Shown piece by piece: positions 10,909 to 33,945 of a stretch of DNA of 38,851 nt. Below the pieces are notes generated by a model, which saw only the letters and a list, made by a program, of their open reading frames with translations, made no database searches and had not been told where the DNA came from. Origin of the DNA: Snowella sp. (GTDB lineage Bacteria; Cyanobacteriota; Cyanobacteriia; Cyanobacteriales; Microcystaceae); the NCBI GenBank assembly GCA_003249095.1, contig QBMS01000028.1, positions 1 to 38,851 of the forward strand, in the 5' to 3' direction. Within the stretch, counting starts at the first letter, position 1; every line of letters starts with the position of its first letter. A program made the translations under genes and the position numbers.

Positions 10909-13275
10909 TTAATGCGGGTCTGATTTTTTTTGCATTTGACGAGGTAACCTAACGGTAAAAGTAGAACCCAGATTGACTTCGCTCTCAATTTCAAGAGTGC
11001 CTCTATGGAGTTCAATGTATCTTTTAACAATATTTAAACCCAATCCTGTTCCAGGAATATTTTCCACATTAGAGGCACGATGAAAGGACTCGCAAATATT
11101 AACCAGATCTTTTTGGGGAATTCCGATGCCGCGATCGCTAATCTTAAAGATAATTTCAGATTGAGACAACTCAATTACACATTCAATCGGGCTATTTTCT
11201 TTTGAATATTTAACTGCATTATTTAACAAGTTAGATAAGATGTGATAAAGAATCTTAGGATCGCCATTAATTTGCTTTCCGAGTCCGAATTCATCTACCA
11301 AAGATACCATGATTTGATTTTTATTTTCTGAGTTAGATAAAACATCTTCAACAACTTCATGACAAAAGCCCTCGATATTTAATGATTGTAATTCAAGGGT
11401 TATTTTGTCAGAGGTCAGACGGCTTAGGACTAAAACATCTTCGATCATCTCTTTCAGTCTTAATGCAGATTTTAAAACTTTATTAAGATTATCAAATCTC
11501 TTCTCTTCTGATAATTTTTGGTAATACTTAATGATAAATTCTGTGTTCCCTAAAATTACCGTTAAGGGAGTCCGAAATTCGTGGGAGGCCACGTCAATAA
11601 ATTGAGTTTTAAGTTCATTCAGTTCCCGTTCTTTAATAAGAGCGTTTTGCATTTCTAGTTCTGCTTTTTTGCGCTCACTAATATCCCGAAAGATTCCTTG
11701 AATATATTGGCGACCATTGTATTCAATCATACTTCCCGTAATATCCACGGGAATGGTATTACCGTCTTTACAGACAATTGTTGTATTTAATAATTGTCCA
11801 GTACGGTTATTAACGATTCGTTGAAAAGATTCTTTAGTAGTATTAGACTCTTCTAAGGTATGGAGATCGGAGATTTTTAATTTAACCATTTCTGCTTTAC
11901 TATAGCCGAATAGTTGAATTGCTTTTTGATTAGCCTCGACCAAATTTCCCTGAATATCAGCAATTAAAATAGCATCACTGGCTTGATCTAACAAGTGTTG
12001 GTAACGAGCTTCACTTTTTCGTACCGCTTGTGTCCTTTCTTCTACCCTGAGTTCCAAGTCTTGATTGAGTATTTGCAAGTCATTTTCGGCCTGTTTCCGA
12101 ACGGTAATATCTTCACAAATACAGAGTAAATATTCCGGTTCGTCATTGTTAGCAAACAGGGGAACCTTAATGGTATGGAGGTAAATTGTTCCTTGTTTTG
12201 GAGATTCGATCTGTTCTTCGGCAATGTCAATGATTTTTTTACTGTTGACTGCTTCTCGATCCTGGGACTCATAAAGTTCAGCGTACTCTTTTGAATAAAT
12301 TTCATGGATATTTTTTCCTAAAACTTGGTCTGAGGGGATTGCAAAAATTGTTTCACAAGTGTGATTCCAAAGAATTATTTGACCAAATTTTTCGGGAGAA
12401 ACATCTTTGACAAAAAGGGCGACGGGTAAATAGTCCAAAAGTTTTTGGAGAAATTCTTGGGCATTTTGTAACTCTTTAGTCCGCTCTTTTACTCGTTGCT
12501 CTAATTCTGCGGTTAAGGTTTGGGTTTCATTAAATTTTTGCTGGAGTGTTTTAGCTAAAAAACCAATTTCATCATCGTAAACAAGAGAAATATTTAAAGG
12601 GCTGGTTCCAGAATTTTCGGCGATCGCAGATTGAATGCTTTGTAGCGGCAATAAAACACGTTTTCTCAAAACGAAAATCGTTCCCCCCAAGACAAATAGA
12701 ACTCCCGCAAAAGAAAGTCCTAATGTCCAGAAAAAATTGAGATTATTTTCTTTGTGAATCGGTTCAATATCTAAGACAATCAAAATTTGACCAAAAAATC
12801 TTTTTTCATGAAACAACGAGTTATTAAAAGGCAAAATTTGCACAAAAACTGAGTGGCCATTCTGCTCGATCGGCATATTGAGCTTTAATCCTTTTTGCCT
12901 ACTTTTTTGAATCTGTGATTCCATTTTTATCCGCTTCGTTGTCCAGAGCATTTTGGCGCGGCGATCATTAGGGCTACTGGTCAAAATTTGTCCCGTCGGA
13001 CTAATAATTTCGATTTGAATAACCCCTGGTAAGGTTGCATAATTTTGAACCACCCGTTTTAATAAAACAGGTTGCTGGGATTCGATCAGTCCCTCGGTGG
13101 CAAATTCAATTCCCCGTGAAATCGTGTTTGCTCGTTGTTGAATTTCTTGTTCTAAAAGCTTTTGAGAAAAATAACTATGGGCAAAAAGAAGCGCGAGTGA
13201 AGCAATACTGAGAGTTGCTCCTAGAGAAAAGAAAAGATAACGAGAGATTTGAGATTTTATGGGATTATGTTCCAT
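10909..13275 (-). CDS. Membrane PAS-containing sensor histidine kinase
   Basis: The 788-residue sensor kinase has a first helix at about 13-33, a periplasmic sensor region (about 35-178), and a second helix at about 180-203. HAMP-like and coiled-coil segments, then two PAS domains (about 275-395 and 425-540), come next. The HisKA domain carries phosphoacceptor H565 in ASHEFRTPLT, and the HATPase domain has an N box (NLLNNAVKYS), G1 (DRGIGIP) and G2 (GTGLGLNIV). No response regulator gene lies nearby. Its start overlaps the end of the upstream substrate-binding-protein gene by 19 bp, so the two are almost certainly translated from one message. The natural inference is that the binding protein delivers the periplasmic signal. 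Confidence 0.9.
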   Translation of the reverse strand: MEHNPIKSQISRYLFFSLGATLSIASLALLFAHSYFSQKLLEQEIQQRANTISRGIEFATEGLIESQQPVLLKRVVQNYATLPGVIQIEIISPTGQILTSSPNDRRAKMLWTTKRIKMESQIQKSRQKGLKLNMPIEQNGHSVFVQILPFNNSLFHEKRFFGQILIVLDIEPIHKENNLNFFWTLGLSFAGVLFVLGGTIFVLRKRVLLPLQSIQSAIAENSGTSPLNISLVYDDEIGFLAKTLQQKFNETQTLTAELEQRVKERTKELQNAQEFLQKLLDYLPVALFVKDVSPEKFGQIILWNHTCETIFAIPSDQVLGKNIHEIYSKEYAELYESQDREAVNSKKIIDIAEEQIESPKQGTIYLHTIKVPLFANNDEPEYLLCICEDITVRKQAENDLQILNQDLELRVEERTQAVRKSEARYQHLLDQASDAILIADIQGNLVEANQKAIQLFGYSKAEMVKLKISDLHTLEESNTTKESFQRIVNNRTGQLLNTTIVCKDGNTIPVDITGSMIEYNGRQYIQGIFRDISERKKAELEMQNALIKERELNELKTQFIDVASHEFRTPLTVILGNTEFIIKYYQKLSEEKRFDNLNKVLKSALRLKEMIEDVLVLSRLTSDKITLELQSLNIEGFCHEVVEDVLSNSENKNQIMVSLVDEFGLGKQINGDPKILYHILSNLLNNAVKYSKENSPIECVIELSQSEIIFKISDRGIGIPQKDLVNICESFHRASNVENIPGTGLGLNIVKRYIELHRGTLEIESEVNLGSTFTVRLPRQMQKKSDPH

Positions 13276-14279
13276 TGATCGAGTTTAGAATTAAGGAAGT
13301 CAGAGGGAATTATAATAGAAGAATAAATGCCTTGTGCATGGTTATTTTGTATTAAGAGATCATTGGTTTGAGATAATACAAGATTGATACCTTGAGGTTG
13401 ACCAAGCATTTGACGATTAAGGGCAATATTTCCAGGCTTTAAGCCTGCATAACTTTCGAGCAAACTGTCACGGGGCTGACCTAATTCTTTTTCTAAAAAT
13501 TGAAAAATAATTTTGGGTTCTTGTTTTAAAATTGCCATTGTATCAAACCAAGCCCAGATAAACTGACTAAAAGCCGCCTTTTTCTCTTGAAAAGTCTGGT
13601 TTGTCGTCGCCAATATATCTACCACAAGACTGTCTTGATCTTTCGTTGTATAAACTATTGATCCTTGAATTTCCTTGGCAATTTCACTTAACAGGGGTTG
13701 CCACATCACAGCGGCATCAATTTTGTTGTTTCGGAGTTCATTAGCGGCTATTTCATTAGAAATATCGACCATCTTAATAACTCTTGGCGAAATTTCGTGG
13801 AGTTTAAGGGCTTCTAATAAAATAAGCTCATTAACTGTACCTAATTTAACGCCAACTCGTTTACCTGGGAGATCTTCCATTGATTTCAGAGGAGAGCGGG
13901 CTACTATGCCGTCAGAACCATGAGACACATTAGTGACAAGCAAAATCACAGGTTGGACAGAAGTAACGCTTGTACTCATTAAATCCCAAATGGTCGAAAA
14001 AGTGGCATCTAGTGAGCCGTGTAACATAGCTCTGGTGGCATCTTGCAAATTTACAAATTCAATCAAATCAATTTGCAGTCCCCGTTTTTCCATGATTCCT
14101 GTTTTCTGGGCATAGAGCGCGATCGCGTAGCCAATCCAATCATTAATCCCAATGCGTAGAGTGGTAATTTGGTTGGTAGGTTGGCAACCCCAATGAGCCA
14201 AGGCAAGACCCGTTCCCATCACCATGTTGGAAAGAAATGTTCTGCGTCGGATTGTTCCATTTTGCCTATGTTCTTGCAT
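13257..14279 (-). CDS. Tat-type periplasmic substrate-binding protein (SsuA/NMT1-like)
   Basis: The 340-residue product is a type 2 periplasmic binding protein of the NMT1/SsuA (nitrate/sulfonate/thiamine-precursor) class. Family features are TLRIGINDWIGYA after the leader, an AMLHGSLDATFSTIWD segment, LPGKRVGVKLGT, and the second-lobe signature NELRNNKIDAAVMWQP. The N terminus has a twin-arginine motif RRRTFLS (11-17), a hydrophobic stretch and Cys32. The residue at -3 before Cys32 is His, so a lipobox is doubtful. No permease or ATPase gene is near. The gene overlaps the downstream histidine kinase, which suggests a sensory rather than a transport role. The ligand is unknown. Confidence 0.85.
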   Translation of the reverse strand: MQEHRQNGTIRRRTFLSNMVMGTGLALAHWGCQPTNQITTLRIGINDWIGYAIALYAQKTGIMEKRGLQIDLIEFVNLQDATRAMLHGSLDATFSTIWDLMSTSVTSVQPVILLVTNVSHGSDGIVARSPLKSMEDLPGKRVGVKLGTVNELILLEALKLHEISPRVIKMVDISNEIAANELRNNKIDAAVMWQPLLSEIAKEIQGSIVYTTKDQDSLVVDILATTNQTFQEKKAAFSQFIWAWFDTMAILKQEPKIIFQFLEKELGQPRDSLLESYAGLKPGNIALNRQMLGQPQGINLVLSQTNDLLIQNNHAQGIYSSIIIPSDFLNSKLDQWNIIP

Positions 14280-14475: not shown

Positions 14476-18129
<3,654 letters not shown>

Positions 18130-20834: not shown

Positions 20835-21308
20835 TTAGGAGATTTCTAGGAATTTTGATGATATCCCCCACCTGTTTCTACAGGTTTGTTTGCTTAACCG
20901 TAACTGAGTTCCGTTGGCATTCCATTGAACTTGATCAAAAACCTGATGAAGAATACATAAGCCCCTTCCATTTTCCGATTCTTCGGGGGGAAGTAAGGCG
21001 GTGGGACAGTTAGCATGAAGTTCGCAAGTGCATTTTGGGGTAAAACCGTCTCCTTGGTCTGAGATAACCCAGGAATAGCCCGATTTAGAAACTAAAAAAC
21101 TGACAACAACCGATTTACTGGGATCAAGTTTATTTCCGTGTTTAGCGGCATTAACGAGGGCTTCTTGTAAACCTAACCGAATTTCGTATCGAATTTCAGA
21201 GGGAATATTGGCTAGGAGTAAATCTAGGACGGGACAAAGATAAAGGGTGGAATTGAAGCTTAAAGTACTCCAGCTTCGCTTAGTGGGAGGCAGTGAAATA
21301 GAGATCAC
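20835..21308 (-). CDS. Anti-sigma regulatory factor, RsbW-like serine kinase
   Basis: The 157-residue product has the GHKL ATPase fold used by anti-sigma factors/serine kinases such as RsbW and SpoIIAB. Motifs are the N box LQEALVNAAKHGN, the G1 box ISDQGDGF and the G2 box ENGRGLCIL. A short cysteine-rich loop (CTCELHANC) sits between G1 and G2. The start is a GTG (21306-21308) with GAGGAA 6-7 nt upstream, which decides it. It would normally bind a sigma factor or phosphorylate an anti-anti-sigma partner; no STAS partner or PP2C phosphatase is encoded here. It converges on ilvA with only 13 bp between the stops. Confidence 0.85.
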   Translation of the reverse strand: MISISLPPTKRSWSTLSFNSTLYLCPVLDLLLANIPSEIRYEIRLGLQEALVNAAKHGNKLDPSKSVVVSFLVSKSGYSWVISDQGDGFTPKCTCELHANCPTALLPPEESENGRGLCILHQVFDQVQWNANGTQLRLSKQTCRNRWGISSKFLEIS

Positions 21309-25747: not shown

Positions 25748-27052
25748 ATGTCTTCTGCCGAGTCTTCACTTCTAGATACTGCTTTGAGCGATTATGAATC
25801 CGTGCTGAATAGTTGGCAAAATAGCGAAACGCCTAATAGCGAGCAGGCCGTCAATATCTTAACAGCCAGAGATAAAGTTCAAAAAGCTTTAGGGGCTGAA
25901 AACCAAGTAACAGCAAATCTTTTAGAAAGATTAGTGGTATTAGACAATAAACTCCAAGAAAATGCGGCTTTAATCGCCCAAGTTTTAGATTTAGCGACCT
26001 ATCGCAATTCTCTTTCTGTCACGACCCAAGATTGGTGGTGGAATCTAGATTCGACGGTTGAATCTGACTCCTCCGACAAATTTGCTTGGTTATGGAAGGG
26101 GGCAAGGCTGAGCGTATGGACAATGAATTTAGGTTTATTGGGAACTTTAGCAACTCGCTTTTTTAGCGGTGCTTCTGGATTAACAGAGGTATTAACCATT
26201 GCCTTGCCAAGTATTTTAGTTTTATTGCAGGCGAATAATGAATTAACTTCTTCGGGTCAAGAAGGGTTTAACCGACTGTTCAATCGCCTCAAAATACCGC
26301 CCCATCTATACGAGCAGGCAAAATTTATTCCTACGGCTTCTTTATTTGCCTTTTTACTGATGATTTGGTTTCTACAACCGCAGTTTTCTCAAGAAATTAA
26401 TCGAGAAGGCCGTCGAGCAGAAGAAAAAGGTCAGTTAACGAATGCAGAGCAAAATTATTTAAAAGCGATCGCCTTAAATAATAATAATTTGGATGCGACG
26501 TATAATCTAGGAAATCTTTATGAGGAATTGCAAAATTTTGATAATGCCCTTAAGTATTACATCATTGCGGCTAAGGGAGGTGTTCCCGATGCTTACAATA
26601 ACCTAGCGCGTCTATATATTTTGCAAAATAAATACTCAGAGGCTGTTCTGTTATTAAAAGATGGTTTGGCACTGATGGCGCAAAAAGAACAATCAGAAGG
26701 AAATGTATCCAATGACTTAAATGCTGTTAAATATAGTATATTCAAAAATTTAGGCTGGGCAAAATTTAAGCAAGCAAACTATCAAGAAGCTCAGGGATTT
26801 TTAGATACGGCGATCGGCATTGCTAGTGTTCCAGAAATTCAGTCCTATATCCTCAATCCAGGAGCCGCTAATTGTCTTCTAGCCCAAGTCCTAGAGGCAC
26901 AAAAATTGCCTGGAGCAGTTGAACAGTGGCGACAATGCTATGATTTAATCAACAAGCGGTTAGCAGCCAGAGATGTTCGTAACGCTGAGGAGGAAACCTG
27001 GTTTTCCCTCGCTAAACAAAAATTAAATCTCGAAAAAAAATCTACTCCATGA
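25748..27052 (+). CDS. Membrane protein with C-terminal TPR repeats
   Basis: The 434-residue product has a soluble helical N terminus (1-110). Hydrophobic segments lie at about 120-140, 145-165 and 197-215, and TPR-type repeats occupy about 222-425 (AEEKGQLTNAEQNYLKAIALN, NLGNLYEELQNFDNALKYY and further copies). The TPRs should lie on one side of the membrane as a docking surface. The start has GGAG five nt upstream. Its stop overlaps the next start in an ATGA, so translation of the two is coupled. The pair probably acts together, perhaps with the exported CHAT protein further down. No enzymatic motif is seen. Confidence 0.75.
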   Translation: MSSAESSLLDTALSDYESVLNSWQNSETPNSEQAVNILTARDKVQKALGAENQVTANLLERLVVLDNKLQENAALIAQVLDLATYRNSLSVTTQDWWWNLDSTVESDSSDKFAWLWKGARLSVWTMNLGLLGTLATRFFSGASGLTEVLTIALPSILVLLQANNELTSSGQEGFNRLFNRLKIPPHLYEQAKFIPTASLFAFLLMIWFLQPQFSQEINREGRRAEEKGQLTNAEQNYLKAIALNNNNLDATYNLGNLYEELQNFDNALKYYIIAAKGGVPDAYNNLARLYILQNKYSEAVLLLKDGLALMAQKEQSEGNVSNDLNAVKYSIFKNLGWAKFKQANYQEAQGFLDTAIGIASVPEIQSYILNPGAANCLLAQVLEAQKLPGAVEQWRQCYDLINKRLAARDVRNAEEETWFSLAKQKLNLEKKSTP

Positions 27053-28140
27053 TACCCAAAAAACAGTTAGTCACATCCGTACTGATCACAGGGGTAATAG
27101 TCATCGGTTCGTCTGAATTAAGTTTAGGCGAATCAATGGGCGTTAATATTTTGATCATTAACAAGGGCGAAGTCAAGGTTAAGAAGGAAAACTGGAAAGC
27201 CTTCCAAAAAGCCAGTACTGGTTCGCTTTTGCGTCCCAATGATTATTTACAAATGGGTTCAAATGCCTCTGCGTTCCTCCTGTGTAGTAATACGGAACGA
27301 TGGCAACCCACTGCGGGTAAACAATTTAGAGTCTCTGAGGGGTGTCCAAGAGGAACCGCTTCCCGTCCTCGCACTGTTGACCTCAGCCAAACCCGTAGCC
27401 CAAATGGGCTGATTCCTTACGTTATCAGTCCCCGCAATACGGATCTTTTGAGCGATCGCCCTTTGTTGAAGTGGAATCCTGTGTCAGGGGCAACTCGTTA
27501 TCAGGTGCAGTTAGAAGGTGGCGGCTTAGATTGGCAAACGGAAACTAAGGAGACCCAGGTACTTTATGGGGGGCAAGAACCCTTAAAGTCTGGAGTGAAG
27601 TACTTGTTAACGGTAACAACGGATAAGGGGGTCTCGTCTAAGCAGGAAGTGGGAGCCAATTTGATGTTTGGGCTGATGGCCACGGAGAAGGCAAAGGTTG
27701 TTGAGGAGGAGGCGACGAATCTGAAAAAACAGGGTTTGTCCCCAGAAGTGGAAACCTTGTCCCTAGCCTATCTCTATGAAGGGAATAACCTCAAGGCAGA
27801 GGCGATCGCCCTTTTACAGCCTCTGAGTCAACAGAAAAGCCAAAATCGGGTGGTTTATAGTTTATTGGGGGATTTGTTGTTACAGACGGGTTTAAATCAA
27901 CAGGCCCAGCAGGCTTATCAACAGGCTTTATCCCTTGCCCAAAAATCGGGCGATCAAGAGGGAGAAGCAGAAGCTCAATCGGGGTTAGGAGAGGCCAGTT
28001 TTGGACTAGGGAAGAAGGAGGAGGCTCTTTCTTGGTTGAAAAAGGCTCAGGCTAGTTACGGTGTTTTGGGGGATGAGTCCCAGGCGCAGCTATTGACACA
28101 ACGGATCGAGGAAATTCAAAAACGGTTAAAAAACAGTTAA
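27049..28140 (+). CDS. Exported FecR-like / TPR protein
   Basis: The 363-residue product begins with a signal peptide (about 1-28, KKQLVTSVLITGVIVIGSSELSLG). A FecR-like beta domain (about 30-105, with KGEVKVKKENWKAF and a cysteine pair C78/C97) follows, then an Ig/fibronectin-like segment (about 125-205, LLKWNPVSGATRYQVQLEGG). TPR-type helices (about 210-360) end the protein. Proteins with this layout commonly lie beside TPR-CHAT genes in cyanobacteria. Translation is coupled to the upstream membrane TPR gene by a 4-bp ATGA overlap. The likely site of action is the periplasm. Its role is unknown; scaffold or ligand sensing are possibilities. Confidence 0.75.
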   Translation: MIPKKQLVTSVLITGVIVIGSSELSLGESMGVNILIINKGEVKVKKENWKAFQKASTGSLLRPNDYLQMGSNASAFLLCSNTERWQPTAGKQFRVSEGCPRGTASRPRTVDLSQTRSPNGLIPYVISPRNTDLLSDRPLLKWNPVSGATRYQVQLEGGGLDWQTETKETQVLYGGQEPLKSGVKYLLTVTTDKGVSSKQEVGANLMFGLMATEKAKVVEEEATNLKKQGLSPEVETLSLAYLYEGNNLKAEAIALLQPLSQQKSQNRVVYSLLGDLLLQTGLNQQAQQAYQQALSLAQKSGDQEGEAEAQSGLGEASFGLGKKEEALSWLKKAQASYGVLGDESQAQLLTQRIEEIQKRLKNS

Positions 28141-28190
28141 AGATTATTTTTCTCCTTTCAAAAGGCTAATGCGTACAAACACTTGTTTTG

Positions 28191-28412
28191 CCCCCCCAGC
28201 CCCCCAAGTTTGGGGTAGGGCTGATTCATTCTCCAGTCTGATTCCTTTTTTTTATGTCTTCAATCGCTTATGGGGCAAGCAAAGCAAGGTATTTTAAAAA
28301 ATTTTCAGATATTTATTCTGAGAAATCGCCTGAAAACGTTGCCAGATAAGCTTTTAATTGAATGACAGTTGTGAGAATGAAACAGCCCTACCAAGTTTGG
28401 GGGGAGTTCGGA
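28191..28412. repeat. MITE-like element with about 40-bp imperfect terminal inverted repeats
   Basis: The left arm (28191-28233) contains CCCCCCAAGTTTGGGGTAGG and then GCTGATTCATTCTC. The right arm (28373-28412) is its reverse complement with few changes, GAGAATGAAACAGCCCTACC matching 19 of 20 positions. The interior (about 140 bp) has no gene. The size and arms fit a non-autonomous transposon, although C/G-rich hairpin repeats of this type are also scattered in cyanobacterial genomes. No target duplication was identified. Confidence 0.6.
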
Positions 28413-28430
28413 GAGTATCAGGGTTTCAAG

Positions 28431-28448
28431 TCCCCCAGAATTGGGGGA
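28431..28448. repeat. C/G-rich interspersed hairpin
   Basis: TCCCCCAGAATTGGGGGA forms a stem of C/G runs around a short AT centre and is followed by TTTAGGGGGC. This C5...G5 motif is a familiar interspersed repeat in filamentous and colonial cyanobacteria. It does not look like a terminator because no T tract follows. Confidence 0.5.
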
Positions 28449-28599
28449 TTTAGGGGGCGATTTTCAAAACTACGGGCTTCAATTTAGACGCGGTATATGT
28501 TGGAAAAATTCAATACTTTTACGCCAATGTGTGTGAATTATATCTAAACGCTGTAAGTTTTTATTTCAAGCACCTTTTGATTCGGAATGATTAAACAAA

Positions 28600-28986
28600 A
28601 TGACTGAAACTGTCACCTTGGAACTGCCTGAAGCCTTAGCCCAACAAGCCAAGCAAATTGCAACACTCACCCATAGACGGCTGGAAGAAATCTTGGTCGA
28701 GTGGATTGATTTTGCGATCGCTGAACTCCCTATCGAATCTTTGTCAGATAATCAGATTTTAGCTCTCTGTGATCTCCAGATGGAAGCCGCACAACAAGAG
28801 ATATTTAGCAGTCTGTTAGCCCAAAATCGAGAAGGAGAACTTAATGAAGCTGGTGTTAGCCGACTAGATGCGCTGATGCAAGTTTATCGGCGGGGTTTAA
28901 TTCATAAAGCTCGTGCTTTAAAAGTGGCTGTTGAACGGGGTTTACGCCCTGCTCTGAGTGATGGCACGTCCCTATATCCCAATTGA
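28600..28986 (+). CDS. Small antitoxin-like protein upstream of an HNH nuclease
   Basis: The 128-residue product is not a named gene. Its N terminus (TVTLELPEALAQQAKQIA) has the strand-helix pattern of ribbon-helix-helix DNA-binding proteins, as in many antitoxins. The rest is helical and ends in RRGLIHKARALKVAVERGLRPAL. The gene overlaps the following HNH gene by 26 bp, so they are surely translated together. Such small proteins commonly precede HNH nucleases in cyanobacteria, which suggests an antitoxin or immunity role. No experimental evidence is known to me. The start ATG follows an AT-rich leader with no clear Shine-Dalgarno. Confidence 0.65.
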   Translation: MTETVTLELPEALAQQAKQIATLTHRRLEEILVEWIDFAIAELPIESLSDNQILALCDLQMEAAQQEIFSSLLAQNREGELNEAGVSRLDALMQVYRRGLIHKARALKVAVERGLRPALSDGTSLYPN

Positions 28987-29392
28987 AGTTGAGCGTCGGG
29001 TTCGTGCCAATGCTCATTATCGCTGCGGTTATTGTTTGAGTCCTCAGCATTTGGTGATGGCTCGTTTGGAGATTGAACACATCATTCCGCTTGCCAAAAA
29101 AGGGAGCAGTGATGAGTCTAATTTATGGTTGGCTTGTCCTTTGTGTAATCGTTACAAAAGCGACAAAATGACGGGTATTGACCCTGAAACTGGTGAAAGA
29201 GTCCCACTTTTTAATCCAGCGACTCAAATTTGGTCTAAACACTTCCGATGGGCTGAAGACGGTATTATTATTGTTGGGTTGACATCCATTGGTAGAGCAA
29301 CTGTTTCTGCACTTCATCTGAGTGATGATGCAGATGCTTTGATAGTTCGTAGCTATTGGGTGCAAGCAGGCTGGCGTCCTCCGAGTGATTAG
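28961..29392 (+). CDS. HNH endonuclease
   Basis: The 143-residue product is a compact HNH nuclease. From ATG 28961 it reads MARPYIPIEVERRVRANA; then the zinc pair CGYC, the catalytic core EIEHIIPLAKKG (His of the HNH), DESNLWLACPLC (Asn and second Cys pair) and NRYKSD. All expected residues are present. A GTG three bases upstream (28958) is an alternative start. The gene overlaps the small upstream gene by 26 bp. The C-terminal half, about 70 residues, is a domain common to the cyanobacterial version. The target is unknown: DNA cleavage as a toxin, as part of a mobile element or as a housekeeping nuclease are all possible. Confidence 0.85.
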   Translation: MARPYIPIEVERRVRANAHYRCGYCLSPQHLVMARLEIEHIIPLAKKGSSDESNLWLACPLCNRYKSDKMTGIDPETGERVPLFNPATQIWSKHFRWAEDGIIIVGLTSIGRATVSALHLSDDADALIVRSYWVQAGWRPPSD

Positions 29393-29413
29393 GCAAAATT
29401 TACGGGCTTTTTT

Positions 29414-30253
29414 ATGAAGTTTAACTTCCCTCCTGCTCCTATGACTTATTCTTCTAAAGTTTTGATAGTTGGCACTTTGTTGCTGACGGGCGGTTTATTT
29501 CCCCTCGTAATGGCAAAAGAAGCGGTTATTGCCCAAACAACTGTTGCTCAATCCGACAATCGCGCTGATGTGCAGAAACTGAAGGTGGGTAAGGTAACTC
29601 CTGCCACGATTGAGGGAGATCAGAAGCAGTCTTACGTTATTCCAATGGAGAAGGGTCAATATCTGGAGTTGATTGTTGAGCAAAAAAATGTTGATGTGAT
29701 CGTCACTCTTTTTGATCCTCAAGGTCAGCAAGTTTTGGAAATGGACTATACGGGAAGGAGTGGGGAGTTAGTCCTGGCTATAGCGGAACGAACGGGTAAT
29801 TATCGCTTGCAAGTGCGCCGTTTTGAACATGATATTTTGCGAGGGGATTATCGAGTCAGATTAGTCGCACTCAAAGCAGCAAGCCAGAATGAGCAAGAAA
29901 AAGTGAGTGCTTATCGTAAAGCACATAAAGCTTTCTTAGAAGGAATCGCTTTATTGAAAACGGGCAAGCCTGAGTCCTTACCACAGGTATTGGAGAAATT
30001 GAAGGAAGCTCTCAGTAATTATCAAGCAATAGAACAGCCTTCGATAGTAGGAATGGTGCTGATTAACATGGGTGATGTTTATATCGCTTTAAAGGATTAT
30101 CCTAGAGCCTTAGAATCGTATCAACAAGCATTAGCTTTAATAAAGGGGGAGGAGAGCTTATTGGCGAAGCTTTTGCTTTACAGGGAATGGGAACGGTCTA
30201 TTTTTCTCAAGGAGATCAGGAAAAGGCAAGTGATTTTTTGCAACAGGCGTTAA
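29414..30253 (+). CDS. Exported TPR-CHAT protein, N-terminal part (frame broken near 30145)
   Basis: The 279-residue frame has a signal peptide (about 1-40, LIVGTLLLTGGLFPLVMA, then AQTT). A PPC-like beta domain (about 50-155, VGKVTPATIEGDQKQSYVIPM ... GNYRLQVRRF) follows, then the first TPR (about 200-245). After residue 243 the frame changes: the next TPR sequence continues in the -1 frame, and this frame ends 33 codons later with non-family residues (KLLLYREWERSIFLKEIRKR). The slip point has five G residues; six would restore a continuous gene of about 1510 residues through 33945. So this is either a frameshift mutation, a sequence error, or programmed -1 frameshifting. ATG 29441 is an alternative start. 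The leader makes the gene product periplasmic. Confidence 0.8.
   Translation: MKFNFPPAPMTYSSKVLIVGTLLLTGGLFPLVMAKEAVIAQTTVAQSDNRADVQKLKVGKVTPATIEGDQKQSYVIPMEKGQYLELIVEQKNVDVIVTLFDPQGQQVLEMDYTGRSGELVLAIAERTGNYRLQVRRFEHDILRGDYRVRLVALKAASQNEQEKVSAYRKAHKAFLEGIALLKTGKPESLPQVLEKLKEALSNYQAIEQPSIVGMVLINMGDVYIALKDYPRALESYQQALALIKGEESLLAKLLLYREWERSIFLKEIRKRQVIFCNRR
30142..30171 (+). other. Candidate -1 slippery site with downstream hairpin
   Basis: In the first frame the codons read ATA AAG GGG GAG, so 30142-30148 fits the X XXY YYZ heptamer A AAG GGG. Slippage by -1 gives AAA GGG and then the TPR frame used by the downstream part. A weak 5-bp hairpin (AGCTT 30155-30159 with AAGCT 30167-30171) starts 7 nt after it. 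The match may be coincidence because a G-run deletion produces the same picture. Confidence 0.35.
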
Positions 30254-33200
30254 CAGTCTGGCAAAAGATGCCTGAACGCCTAGATGCAAGGGAAACACTT
30301 AGAATTTTAGCGATTGTTTATGGGAACTTAAAGAAGTATCCAGAGGCATTAGTAACTTTTGAAAAGATTTTGATCTTGGATCGAAAGCTGGGAGATCGCG
30401 GTGGAGAGGCCGCTACTCTCCATCGTATTGGTGGTGTCTATAACGCATTAGGAGACAACAAAAAGGCATTGGACTACTATAGCCAAGCTTTACCTTTATT
30501 CAAAGCAGTCAGAGATCGTAATGGAGAAGCTACTATTCTCAATAATATTGCTGCTACCTATGAAGCATTAGGAGAAAAACAGAAGGCATTAGATTACTAC
30601 AGCCAAAGCCAAGCTTTAGTACCACTGGCTCAAGTGACAACTGCTCAAGCTAATTCCTCAACTCAATCGCAACAGCTTTTCGATGAGGGGATGAAATTAT
30701 ACAAACAAGGATCAGCCGAATCCCGACGACAAGCTATCACTAAATTGGAAGCAGCTTTACCTTTATTGCGTAAAGAGGGAAATAAATCCTTAGAAGCAGC
30801 TACTTTAGATTGGCTCGGAGGTGTCTATAATGATTTAGGAGAAAAACAGAAAGCTTTGGATTACTTCAACCAAGCTTTACCCTTAAGAAAAGTAGTAGGA
30901 GATCGCGGTGGAGAAGCCGCTACCCTTACGAATATTGGTGCTGTCTATAACGATTTAGGAGAAAAACAGAAAGCTTTGGACTACTATAGCCAAGCTTTAC
31001 CGTTAAGGAAAGTAGTAGGTGATCGTGGTGGAGAAGCGGCTACCCTCCATAATATTGGTGCTGTCTATAATGATTTAGGAGAAAAACAGAAAGCTTTGGA
31101 TTACTATAGCCAAGCTTTACCCTTAAGAAAAATAGTAAGTGATCGCGGTGGAGAAGCCTTTACTCTCAATAGTATTGGTAGTGTCTATAACGATTTAGGA
31201 GAAAAACAAAAGGCTTTGGATTACTACAGCCAAGCTTTACCTTTATCAAAAGCACTAGGCGATCGTAGGGGAGAAGCCGTTACTCTCCATAATATTGGTG
31301 CTGTCTATAATGATTTAGGAGAAAAACAGAAGGCATTGGATTACTATAGCCAAGCTTTACCCTTATCGAAAGCAGTAGGTGATCGCAAGGTAGAAGCTAC
31401 TATTCTCAATGGTATTGGTGTCGTCTATGGTGCTTTAGGAGAAAAACAGAAGGCTTTGGATTATTTCAGCCAAGCTTTACCGTTGTGGATAGCAGTAGGC
31501 GATCGCGGTGGAGAAGCTACTACCCTCAATAATATTGGTTTTGTCTATTCTGATTTAGGAGAACAACAGAAGGCATTGGAATACTACAGCCAAGCTTTAC
31601 TTTTATACAAAGCAGTAGGCGATCTCGGTGGAGAAGCCCCTACCCTCAATAATATTGGTCGTGTTTATAATGATTTAGGGGAACAACAGAAGGCATTGGA
31701 ATACTACAGCCAAGCTTTACCCTTATCCAAAGCAGTAGGCGATTTCGGTGGAGAAGCCACTATTCTCAATAATATTGGTGGTGTTTATAATGATTTAGGA
31801 GAACAACAGAAGGCATTGGACTACTTCAGCCAAGCTTTACCCTTATGGAAAGCAGTAGGCGATCGCAGTGGAGAAGCTCGTACTCTCGGTAATATTGGTG
31901 GTGTCTATAACGCATTAGAAGAAAAACAGAAGGCTTTGGAATACTTAAACCAAGCTTTACCCTTATCCAAAGCAGTAGGCGATTTCGGTGGAGAAGCTAC
32001 TATTCTCAGTCATATTGGTCGTGTTTATTATGATTTAGGAGAAAAACAGAAGGCTTTGGATTACTACAGCCAAGCTTTAATCTTATACAAAGCATTAGGT
32101 GATCGCGGTAGAGAAGCTAATACTCTCGGTAATATTGGTGGTGTCTATCACGTATTAGGAGAAAAACAGAAGGCTTTGGAATACTTAAACCAAGCTTTAC
32201 CATTAACAAAAGTAGTAAGCGATCGCAGGGTCGAAGCCGCTACCCTCGGTAATATCGCCTCTTTAGAAACAGATAGAGGTAACTTGCAAGCGGCATTAAC
32301 TCCCATTCAAGACTCCATTGCTATTCTTGAGGATTTACGCACTAAAATCATTAGCCCCGAACTCCGCCAAACCTTCTTTGCTACTGTACAGGATTATTAT
32401 CAATTCTATATTGATCTCTTGATGACACTTCATCAACAAAATCCCTCCCAAGGTTATGACCAGCAAGCCTTTAATGTCAGCGAACGTTCCCATGCACGAA
32501 CCCTTTTAGAACTCCTGACCGAAGCCAAAGCGAATATTAAAGAAGGCATTAATCCCCAACTCCTAGCCAAGGAAACAGAGCTACAGAATCAACTCGATAC
32601 CGTTGAAAAACAACGACTAGAAATTTATAACAAACCTAACAGCACTGACGAACAAAAAAATGCCATTAACCAACGTCAGAAAACGCTCATCACTCAATAC
32701 CAAGACCTGCAAAACGAAATCCGTGCTAAAAGTCCCAAATACGCCGCCCTTAAATATCCCCAACCTCTGACCCTAGACCAAGTCCAACAGCAAATTCTCG
32801 ATCCTGACACCGCCCTTCTGCAATACTCCGTTGGCAAAGAAAAAAGCTACCTCTGGATCATTACCAAAGACGGATTCACCTCCCACATTCTCCCCGCCCA
32901 AAAAGAAATTGAAACCGCCACACGAGAACTCCTGAATGCCATCCAATACGGCAAAGATGACACAGCCAATATCAGCCAAGCCGCTAACCAACTCAGTCAA
33001 CTTGTCCTCACTCCCGCCGCTAAACTGAATCAAAAACGCTTGATTATCGTTCCCGATGGCGTACTGAGTTACGTCCCCTTCTCTACCCTCACCCTCAACA
33101 ACCAACCCCTGATTAACCAACATGAACTGGTTAACCTGCCCTCCAGTTCCAGTATTGCCCTGATTCGCCAAGAAACCCAAAACCGCAAACCCGCCCCCAA

Positions 33201-33945
33201 AGCCCTGGCGATCCTTGCCGATCCCATTTTCAGTGCAGACGATCCACGCCTCAAAACTCCTCAAAAACAACCCATTTCCCCAAGCAACCCCGACCTTAAC
33301 CAATTAGCTATCAACCGTGTCACAAAAACCCTTAAAAAAAGCCGTGCAGTAGGAAACAATAACCAATTTACGAGACTGCCTGGCACTCGCCAAGAAGCCC
33401 AAGCCATCCTCGCGCTACTTCCCAAAACCGAAACCATCGTCGCCTTCGATGACCAAGCCAACCTTAATTTGGCCATCAATCCTCAACTCAGCCAGTATCG
33501 CATCCTTCATCTAGCGACTCACGGCGTTTTTAATGGAGAAGAACCCACCGATTCTGGTATCATTCTCTCCTTAGTGGATGCCAAAGGAACACCGATCAAT
33601 GGCTTCCTACGTCTTAACGAAATCTTTAACCTTAATCTACCTGCGGAATTAGTGGTGCTAAGTGCCTGCGAAACTGGCTTAGGTCAAGAAATCAAAGGAG
33701 AGGGTCTAGTAGGACTGACCAGGGGCTTTATGTATGCAGGGACACCAAGAGTATTAGTTAGCCTCTGGCAAGTAGATGACCAAGCAACGGCGGAATTGAT
33801 GACCCGATTTTATAAGTTAATTTTAGAGAAGAAACTTCCCCCCGCCCAAGCCCTACGGGAAGCGCAATTGCAAATGCAAAACGAAACTGAGTGGAAATCG
33901 CCCTACTACTGGTCAGCCTTTATTCTTCAGGGGGAATGGCGTTAA
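30187..33945 (+). CDS. TPR-CHAT caspase-like protease, main part (downstream of the frameshift)
   Basis: The 1252-residue frame continues the gene above. Residues about 1-695 are TPR repeats, followed by a helical linker (about 700-860, KANIKEGINPQLLAKETELQ) and the CHAT peptidase domain (about 870-1252). The CHAT dyad is intact: His1112 in HLATHGVF and Cys1161 in LSACETGLG, with the domain end YYWSAFILQGEWR. CHAT proteins are caspase-superfamily proteases or scaffolds, and some act in anti-phage or death responses. Residues about 146-200 (LAQVTTAQANSSTQSQQLFDEG) look like the post-signal start of another such protein, suggesting a fusion of two paralogues. The ATG at 30187 lacks a well-spaced ribosome binding site, so independent translation would give a cytosolic form without the leader. 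Confidence 0.88.
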   Translation: MGTVYFSQGDQEKASDFLQQALTVWQKMPERLDARETLRILAIVYGNLKKYPEALVTFEKILILDRKLGDRGGEAATLHRIGGVYNALGDNKKALDYYSQALPLFKAVRDRNGEATILNNIAATYEALGEKQKALDYYSQSQALVPLAQVTTAQANSSTQSQQLFDEGMKLYKQGSAESRRQAITKLEAALPLLRKEGNKSLEAATLDWLGGVYNDLGEKQKALDYFNQALPLRKVVGDRGGEAATLTNIGAVYNDLGEKQKALDYYSQALPLRKVVGDRGGEAATLHNIGAVYNDLGEKQKALDYYSQALPLRKIVSDRGGEAFTLNSIGSVYNDLGEKQKALDYYSQALPLSKALGDRRGEAVTLHNIGAVYNDLGEKQKALDYYSQALPLSKAVGDRKVEATILNGIGVVYGALGEKQKALDYFSQALPLWIAVGDRGGEATTLNNIGFVYSDLGEQQKALEYYSQALLLYKAVGDLGGEAPTLNNIGRVYNDLGEQQKALEYYSQALPLSKAVGDFGGEATILNNIGGVYNDLGEQQKALDYFSQALPLWKAVGDRSGEARTLGNIGGVYNALEEKQKALEYLNQALPLSKAVGDFGGEATILSHIGRVYYDLGEKQKALDYYSQALILYKALGDRGREANTLGNIGGVYHVLGEKQKALEYLNQALPLTKVVSDRRVEAATLGNIASLETDRGNLQAALTPIQDSIAILEDLRTKIISPELRQTFFATVQDYYQFYIDLLMTLHQQNPSQGYDQQAFNVSERSHARTLLELLTEAKANIKEGINPQLLAKETELQNQLDTVEKQRLEIYNKPNSTDEQKNAINQRQKTLITQYQDLQNEIRAKSPKYAALKYPQPLTLDQVQQQILDPDTALLQYSVGKEKSYLWIITKDGFTSHILPAQKEIETATRELLNAIQYGKDDTANISQAANQLSQLVLTPAAKLNQKRLIIVPDGVLSYVPFSTLTLNNQPLINQHELVNLPSSSSIALIRQETQNRKPAPKALAILADPIFSADDPRLKTPQKQPISPSNPDLNQLAINRVTKTLKKSRAVGNNNQFTRLPGTRQEAQAILALLPKTETIVAFDDQANLNLAINPQLSQYRILHLATHGVFNGEEPTDSGIILSLVDAKGTPINGFLRLNEIFNLNLPAELVVLSACETGLGQEIKGEGLVGLTRGFMYAGTPRVLVSLWQVDDQATAELMTRFYKLILEKKLPPAQALREAQLQMQNETEWKSPYYWSAFILQGEWR
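30781..32260 (+). repeat. Tandem TPR-coding array with an exact 120-bp period
   Basis: About twelve consecutive 120-bp units without length change code for 40-residue TPR copies. Each contains forms of GEKQKALDYYSQALPL and GDRGGEA. The units differ mostly at variable positions while long stretches are identical. The array invites slippage and gene conversion, so unit number should vary among strains. Two further units (about 30393-30630) precede the paralogue-like insertion. Confidence 0.92.

Follow-up and report, generated by a model that had tools for sequence, protein, structure and literature searches.

A gene pair on the reverse strand of the window, which is the whole analysed stretch of 38,851 nucleotides (positions 1 to 38,851 of contig QBMS01000028.1 of the cyanobacterium Snowella sp.), encodes a substrate-binding protein (SBP) of the NMT1/SsuA type and, directly after it, a sensor histidine kinase with two transmembrane (TM) helices. 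We propose that the two proteins very probably form a two-gene membrane receptor, in which the ligand-loaded SBP signals through the kinase, and that the pair likely works like a three-component sensor. Proteins of the SBP's kind ordinarily supply a membrane transporter with nutrients. What was observed in favor of this proposal is the gene pair itself, its conservation, a co-variation of the SBP with the receptor domain only, the exchange of outputs, and the fold class of both parts. The initial annotation of this DNA had suggested a two-part receptor. That suggestion is well supported, as an inference, because the pairing is conserved, because SBP and receptor domain co-vary with each other beyond their co-variation with the kinase core, and because outputs and partners are exchanged.

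The SBP is encoded by an open reading frame (ORF) of 340 amino acid residues at 13257..14279(−) and the kinase by one of 788 residues at 10909..13275(−). The stop of the SBP gene and the start of the kinase gene overlap by 19 bp (13257..13275, minus strand), and a re-reading of the junction in the sequence bore out both ORFs and the overlap as first annotated. The window has 30 ORFs of at least 100 residues, of which 25 were scanned, 23 with Pfam and 2 more with NCBIfam only; the remainder are a gyrB-like ORF at 14506 and four ORFs overlapping larger ones. None of the 25 encodes a permease or ATPase of the ABC type, nor a response regulator, in agreement with the initial annotation, which had remarked on the lack of all three nearby. 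The cognate response regulator is presumably encoded elsewhere in the genome.

The pair recurs. In 98 genomes of relatives, 12 close SBP homologues were found beyond the window (at least 189 bits, 30–42% identity), with all remaining matches at 99 bits or less. For ten of the 12 (12 clade places in 9 relatives' genomes), the next gene on the same strand encodes a membrane protein matching residues 1–255 of the window kinase; the remaining two are paralogues from a single genome (locus L039), one of them near a contig end. A broader scan, of an 84,980-species collection, yielded 70 public loci with 71 SBPs of the clade. Sixty-four of these lie directly upstream, on the same strand, of a receptor with the matching N-terminal domain (TM helix, periplasmic domain, TM helix, HAMP-like segment), and one further pair, in a Thiomargarita metagenome-assembled genome, is divergent with 54 bp between the genes. 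The flanking genes, by comparison, turn over: no cluster takes in more than 9 of 46 genes upstream or 14 of 48 downstream, and those members of the largest clusters that were read resemble signaling genes. Since 64 of the 71 SBPs are paired while their flanks turn over, the pairing is beyond chance. The check proposed in the initial annotation, a search for the pair in other genomes, thus came out positive, and the SBP and the N-terminal domain of the kinase are kept together across many cyanobacteria and the Thiomargarita genome. The loci of relatives are nearly all from cyanobacteria. The layout of an SBP-dependent sensor kinase, an SBP gene adjoining a two-TM kinase gene and conserved in relatives, is the one found here.

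Fifty-one of the 64 downstream pairs overlap. Counted from the first start codon, the overlap is 13 bp in 44 of them; with the second start codon, many pairs show an ATGA or TTGA junction. A gene with a REC domain lies within 300 bp after the pair in 15 of the 35 next genes scanned in relatives (one of 36 was left out, as its sequence contains X). The initial annotation had also proposed looking for fusions of the two proteins, and no functional one turned up. A single chimeric ORF of 465 residues at locus L114, one of the 71 clade SBPs, was considered as a working fusion; it joins a cut, partial SBP to a receptor domain, carries no kinase, and was read as a deletion or assembly product.

The pairing was also followed from the receptor side. 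Among 386 genomes of the phylum, with at most five best candidates scored per genome in the SBP search, the SBP clade is present in 14 and the receptor domain in all of these 14; the receptor-domain profile matches 19 genomes in all. In 388 genomes of the order, the profile found 50 places in 47 genomes. By hand count, 39 of the 50 have an intact NMT1-type SBP directly upstream (counting as intact the SBP of locus L175, which is cut by a contig end), 3 have a PhnD-type SBP, 2 keep a remnant of an SBP, 3 lack one altogether, and the last 3 are fragments of a receptor. The PhnD-type SBP genes lie divergently beside a window-type receptor in three genomes of one genus (L184, L185 and L188), which are all three of its matched genomes; Pfam PF12974 assigns two of the proteins (1.5e-64 and 7.1e-66), and phmmer the third. 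Three further genomes of the phylum each hold a second receptor copy with no intact SBP, one of which keeps a C-terminal SBP remnant. Since some receptor places keep either remnants or no SBP, it seems that the SBP is lost before the receptor; in one genus, an SBP of a different class occupies its position.

Co-variation ties the SBP to the receptor domain in particular. Of 66 pairs, the window included, 64 have a kinase core, and 52 were kept after removal of near-duplicates; the receptor alignment holds 54 domains, 50 of them the non-redundant part of 65. The distances among SBPs correlate with those among receptor domains at a Spearman coefficient of 0.783, the largest of 999 permutations giving 0.31. 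The coefficient for SBP and kinase core is 0.401, and that for receptor domain and kinase core is 0.332, although the latter two belong to the same polypeptide. The outputs vary as well: of 69 receptors, 67 carry HATPase_c, 63 HisKA and 20 REC, and one carries GGDEF and EAL domains in place of a kinase behind the same SBP and receptor domain (L038:4581-8172 / L081). Because the correlation between SBP and receptor domain exceeds that of either one with the kinase core, and because the outputs vary, the SBP and the receptor domain behave as one unit, with the output exchanged among kinase, hybrid kinase and GGDEF-EAL.

Several points weigh against a two-gene receptor. Shared ancestry raises every correlation of the mirror-tree kind, and the distances among kinase cores, with a mean identity of 0.36, are nearer saturation. 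The receptor search profile was built from receptors that adjoin SBPs. Some receptors have no SBP neighbor. Five of the 71 clade SBPs have no receptor nearby: two copies in Prochloron didemni, one in Xenococcus sp. PCC 7305, and two more distant SBPs of Campylobacterota. The Prochloron and Xenococcus genomes also carry an intact pair (L091 and L054). From the unpaired SBPs and the SBP-less receptors, it follows that either partner may function on its own, or else be in decay. The window pair itself has no adjoining response regulator among the scanned ORFs. Finally, an sbp gene and a kinase gene can be neighbors without being linked, as AgtS did not bind AgtB or PA0602 (PMC11113362). As a separate observation, the Xenococcus orphan (L069:4368-7718) is followed after about 240 bp by a Ser/Thr protein kinase gene, which may be chance.

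The alternative that survives best is that the SBP belongs to an ABC importer whose genes lie elsewhere and is additionally, or just incidentally, in one operon with a kinase controlling uptake of the same nutrient, with no need for direct contact between the two. The fold of the SBP is that of transport SBPs, three orphan SBPs of the clade in two genomes lie away from any receptor, and distant homologues stand in complete ABC operons (recognized with Pfam for L209, in the window's genome, and by eye for L045 and L047). The initial annotation had held that relatives lying in such operons, with the kinase elsewhere, would refute the receptor reading. Only distant homologues, about 23–28% identical, do so, for example G000:C171 with its permease and ATPase; at none of the listed loci whose neighbors were read, by eye and partly with Pfam, was an SBP of the clade seen inside an ABC operon. 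It also counts against the importer that the SBP co-varies with the receptor domain and not with the kinase core, and that the receptor domain also adjoins a PhnD-type SBP. We therefore regard the importer as improbable and keep to the two-gene receptor in what follows.

The kinase has the following organization. TM helix 1 (about residues 11–33; 13177..13245, minus strand, as are all features of the pair) and TM helix 2 (about residues 186–207; 12655..12720), the latter followed by a HAMP-like segment, are each predicted from a hydrophobic stretch and from model helices spanning residues 5–65 and 171–220; the boundaries of the first are inferred. Pfam made no HAMP call in the window kinase. 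Two PAS domains follow, the first at residues 281–394 (12094..12435; Pfam PAS_4) and the second at residues 424–534 (11674..12006; Pfam PAS and PAS_9). Pfam places the HisKA dimerization and phosphoacceptor domain at residues 556–622 (11410..11610) and the HATPase_c catalytic domain at residues 671–780 (10936..11265). His565 and the N- and G-box positions are nearly invariant.

Between the TM helices lies the periplasmic receptor domain (about residues 34–185; 12721..13176, with boundaries read from a model of pLDDT 90). In the receptor model (pLDDT 89.7), a single Cache-like domain is framed by two long helices. Its best fold match is WalK, with a Z score of 16.1 for an integrative model and of 15.0 for the crystal structure 4ywz (root-mean-square deviation 2.7, 135 residues aligned, 17% identity). 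Other matches include TlpQ and the extracellular sensor domains of CitA, DctB and LuxQ (3c30, Z 10.0); the sensor domains of WalK, CitA, DctB and LuxQ range in Z from 9.7 to 15.0. Pfam recognizes Cache weakly, with two families having one member each among the 69 receptors. On the model, the receptor domain is a single Cache fold nearest to that of WalK, and we propose that the SBP docks there. WalK and LuxQ alike are kinases that have protein partners, and the title of a WalK-YycH structure among the matches agrees with this for WalK. A shared Cache fold is not a shared function.

The SBP belongs to the NMT1/THI5-like family, since Pfam NMT1 (PF09084) scores it at 57.5 bits against a cut-off of 20.5. 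The NCBIfam model for the aliphatic sulfonate subfamily, SsuA_fam (TIGR01728), gives 109 bits, below its cut-off of 163.5, so that the protein falls outside that subfamily as defined. Its structural model (pLDDT 93.1) matches TauA (6ssy, the best match in the PDB, E 2.7e-19), SsuA and Thi5. The N-terminal 32 residues (14184..14279) form an export or anchor region, read from the sequence as a twin arginine, a hydrophobic helix predicted at residues 8–30, and Cys32. The initial annotation had assigned the protein to twin-arginine translocation (Tat). The window SBP does have near its start a twin-arginine stretch, MQEHRQNGTIRRRTFLSNM...AHWGC, containing RRRTFL, a putative Tat motif; the feature is not general, as a loose twin-arginine pattern is present in only 5 of the 71 clade SBPs. 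Tat export was accordingly rejected as a defining feature of the clade. A lipobox-like Cys just ahead of the mature core is present in 69 of the 71, and the two SBPs that lack it (L081 and L117) resemble uncleaved anchors. Given these counts, the common property of the clade would be membrane tethering and not Tat folding.

The ligand pocket was considered by mapping the contact residues of TauA onto the clade, through alignment of the sequences with TauA and SsuA of E. coli. The SBP alignment has 42 sequences: the window SBP, 6 from genome regions of relatives, and 35 chosen by hand from the species-collection loci. In TauA, the sulfonate is coordinated by Gln30, Gly61 and Gly79, and the amine by Glu106 and Asp205 (PMC6906117). 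Gln30 corresponds to W48 in the window SBP (W in 40 and F in 2 of the 42), Gly61 to L78 (Q in 26, G in 2), and Gly79 to T96 (S in 17, P in 11, T in 8, A in 4 and N in 2). The three sulfonate-side residues are not conserved across the 42 aligned SBPs. On the other side of the pocket, Glu106, Trp176 and Asp205 correspond to D123, W193 and D221, all invariant in the 42. For comparison, 22 loci with distant NMT1 SBPs were taken and an ORF was obtained from 11; the D123 equivalent is present in 11 of these 11 and the D221 equivalent in 9, and the W48 equivalent is likewise mostly kept. These acidic residues are hence not diagnostic of taurine binding. Taurine had been entertained as the ligand on the strength of the invariant Asp205 equivalent; as the amine-side Asp residues are shared by distant NMT1 SBPs, they were dropped as evidence. 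At the clade loci, no conserved neighbors that would hint at a ligand were found outside the pair, beyond genes for REC proteins and histidine kinases. Of the range in the initial annotation (sulfonate, nitrate, pyrimidine precursors), the fold class stands, as it fits TauA, SsuA and Thi5, and the sulfonate-side residues of TauA are not kept. From the alignment, a plain alkanesulfonate is not well supported, and a ligand bearing a cationic or hydrogen-donating group would be plausible.

The lack of the sulfonate-contacting Gln and Gly residues would also suit a second alternative, in which the SBP has lost small-molecule binding and, as a regulatory lipoprotein without ligand, tunes the kinase by mechanical means. 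YycH and YycI tune WalK in this way, and WalK, a kinase with protein partners, is the nearest fold of the receptor domain. The invariance of D123, W193 and D221 in 42 of 42 SBPs is what a working pocket would predict, D123 and D221 being common in distant SBPs as well, and we hold the loss of binding to be very unlikely. That the kinase senses the ligand directly with its Cache domain, the SBP being a passenger, has in its favor that Cache domains commonly bind ligands themselves and that some receptors lack an SBP neighbor, and is equally far from likely in view of the conserved pairing, the co-variation, and the genus without an NMT1 SBP that has another SBP class beside the receptor.

For the two-gene receptor, we suggest the following sequence of events. 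After export, a lipid or signal anchor would keep the SBP on the periplasmic side of the inner membrane, where it would close around a small ligand. The closed SBP would then bind to the kinase, a dimer, at its Cache-like periplasmic domain. The resulting change would travel via TM helix 2 and the HAMP-like linker to the PAS-HisKA-HATPase module and alter autophosphorylation, and a response regulator encoded elsewhere would take the phosphate.

Comparison with known systems places the pair as follows. In LuxP-LuxQ, the kinase has Cache-type periplasmic domains to which an SBP docks, and the LuxQ periplasmic domain is matched by our model; LuxQ has two Cache-type domains and a sugar-type SBP, in contrast to the single Cache-like domain and NMT1-type SBP found here. 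WalK/YycG shares the extracellular Cache domain that is the nearest fold, but is a Gram-positive cell-wall kinase, and we know of no SBP partner for it. The nearest in layout is CuaDSR of Ruminiclostridium cellulolyticum, with a lipoprotein SBP that is encoded directly before a two-TM kinase and binds the external domain of this kinase in two-hybrid tests; it differs in its sugar SBP, its Firmicute host, the response regulator within the operon and the transporter operon next door (PMC10384115). In AioX-AioS and ArrX, a binding protein of transport fold is devoted to signaling, AioX being the closest parallel in this respect; these proteins are PhnD-like, as is the alternative partner here; they differ in that they sense oxyanions and in that the window SBP is of NMT1/SsuA type (PMC5908839). 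In NspS-MbaA, an SBP is reported to control a cyclic di-GMP enzyme, as would be the case for the GGDEF-EAL relative (L038/L081), with a polyamine SBP and another receptor. SBP-activated receptors are an accepted class, and their mechanism is described as general and widespread, acting on kinases, chemoreceptors, cyclic di-GMP enzymes and Ser/Thr kinases, and about ten SBP-activated sensor kinases had been characterized according to a 2022 study (PMC9602780). SBP-dependent kinases are thus already known, and the NMT1-SBP/Cache-receptor pair of cyanobacteria is a further variant of them. No literature on NMT1-type SBPs paired with sensors in cyanobacteria was found, in a search that left subscription journals largely outside.

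Further SBP-receptor arrangements are found in cyanobacteria. Besides the window pair, one more SBP-kinase pair was seen in the genome that holds it. There, a second NMT1 SBP, 21% identical, is encoded 33 bp before a hybrid kinase (L210:2151-5987, G000:C44) with HAMP, PAS, HisKA, HATPase and REC domains and an N-terminus that has no similarity to that of the window kinase. The same genome has a further distant NMT1 SBP that belongs to an ABC operon (L209). PF13379 has eight matches in this genome, three of which were read in their context. Thus, the more distant NMT1 SBPs are not all those of transporters. In other cyanobacteria, distant NMT1 SBPs lie directly upstream of dCache-HAMP receptors that end in GGDEF, SpoIIE, kinase or hybrid kinase (L203, L204, L205, L206, L207 and L224-L232). 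The SBPs before these receptors are single or in arrays of two (L205, L230), three (L207) or four (L206), and these dCache receptors are unrelated to the window-type receptor. A profile of the dCache receptors matched in 13 of 367 genomes, with NMT1 SBPs upstream in 11 of the 13, an SBP_bac_1 protein upstream in 1 (L234) and none in 1; the profile was seeded with five receptors picked for adjoining SBPs, two of which are among the 13, and the non-seeds give 9 of 11. The SBP_bac_1 protein of L234 (858-5099; G082:C128) has an N-terminus with a twin arginine and a Cys, and lies about 10 bp upstream of a hybrid kinase whose match to the profile is weaker than those of the other receptors. It is conceivable, and we would put it just short of probable, that transport-type SBPs are exchangeable plug-in sensors in cyanobacteria: one Cache receptor would take an NMT1- or PhnD-type SBP, the dCache class would take a series of one to four NMT1 SBPs or an SBP_bac_1 protein, and the same front ends would be coupled to histidine kinases or hybrid kinases, to diguanylate cyclases, and to a SpoIIE-type phosphatase.

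In the window, the pair is flanked by a DUF427 gene (Pfam) and a divergent gyrB-like gene, named from its sequence only; the genome is 4.6 Mb. The gyrB-like ORF (14506-18129, 1207 residues) has an apparent large in-frame insertion, judged by eye to be an intein. A lone HATPase_c_2 protein is encoded at 20835-21308 (Pfam), and a series of TPR proteins at 25748-33945, the last a TPR-CHAT protein of 1252 residues. Promoter and terminator searches of the window were uninformative: they gave 12 and 4 predictions, and shuffled sequences gave 11.0 and 3.0.

The pair represents a conserved cyanobacterial family in which the ligand-binding, receptor and output parts can be told apart by evolution alone. 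Separable parts allow swap experiments, and offer a route to an extracellular signal of bloom-forming and mat-forming cyanobacteria. If it is true that arrays of SBPs feed one receptor, this would be a simple way for a single kinase to sense several ligands.

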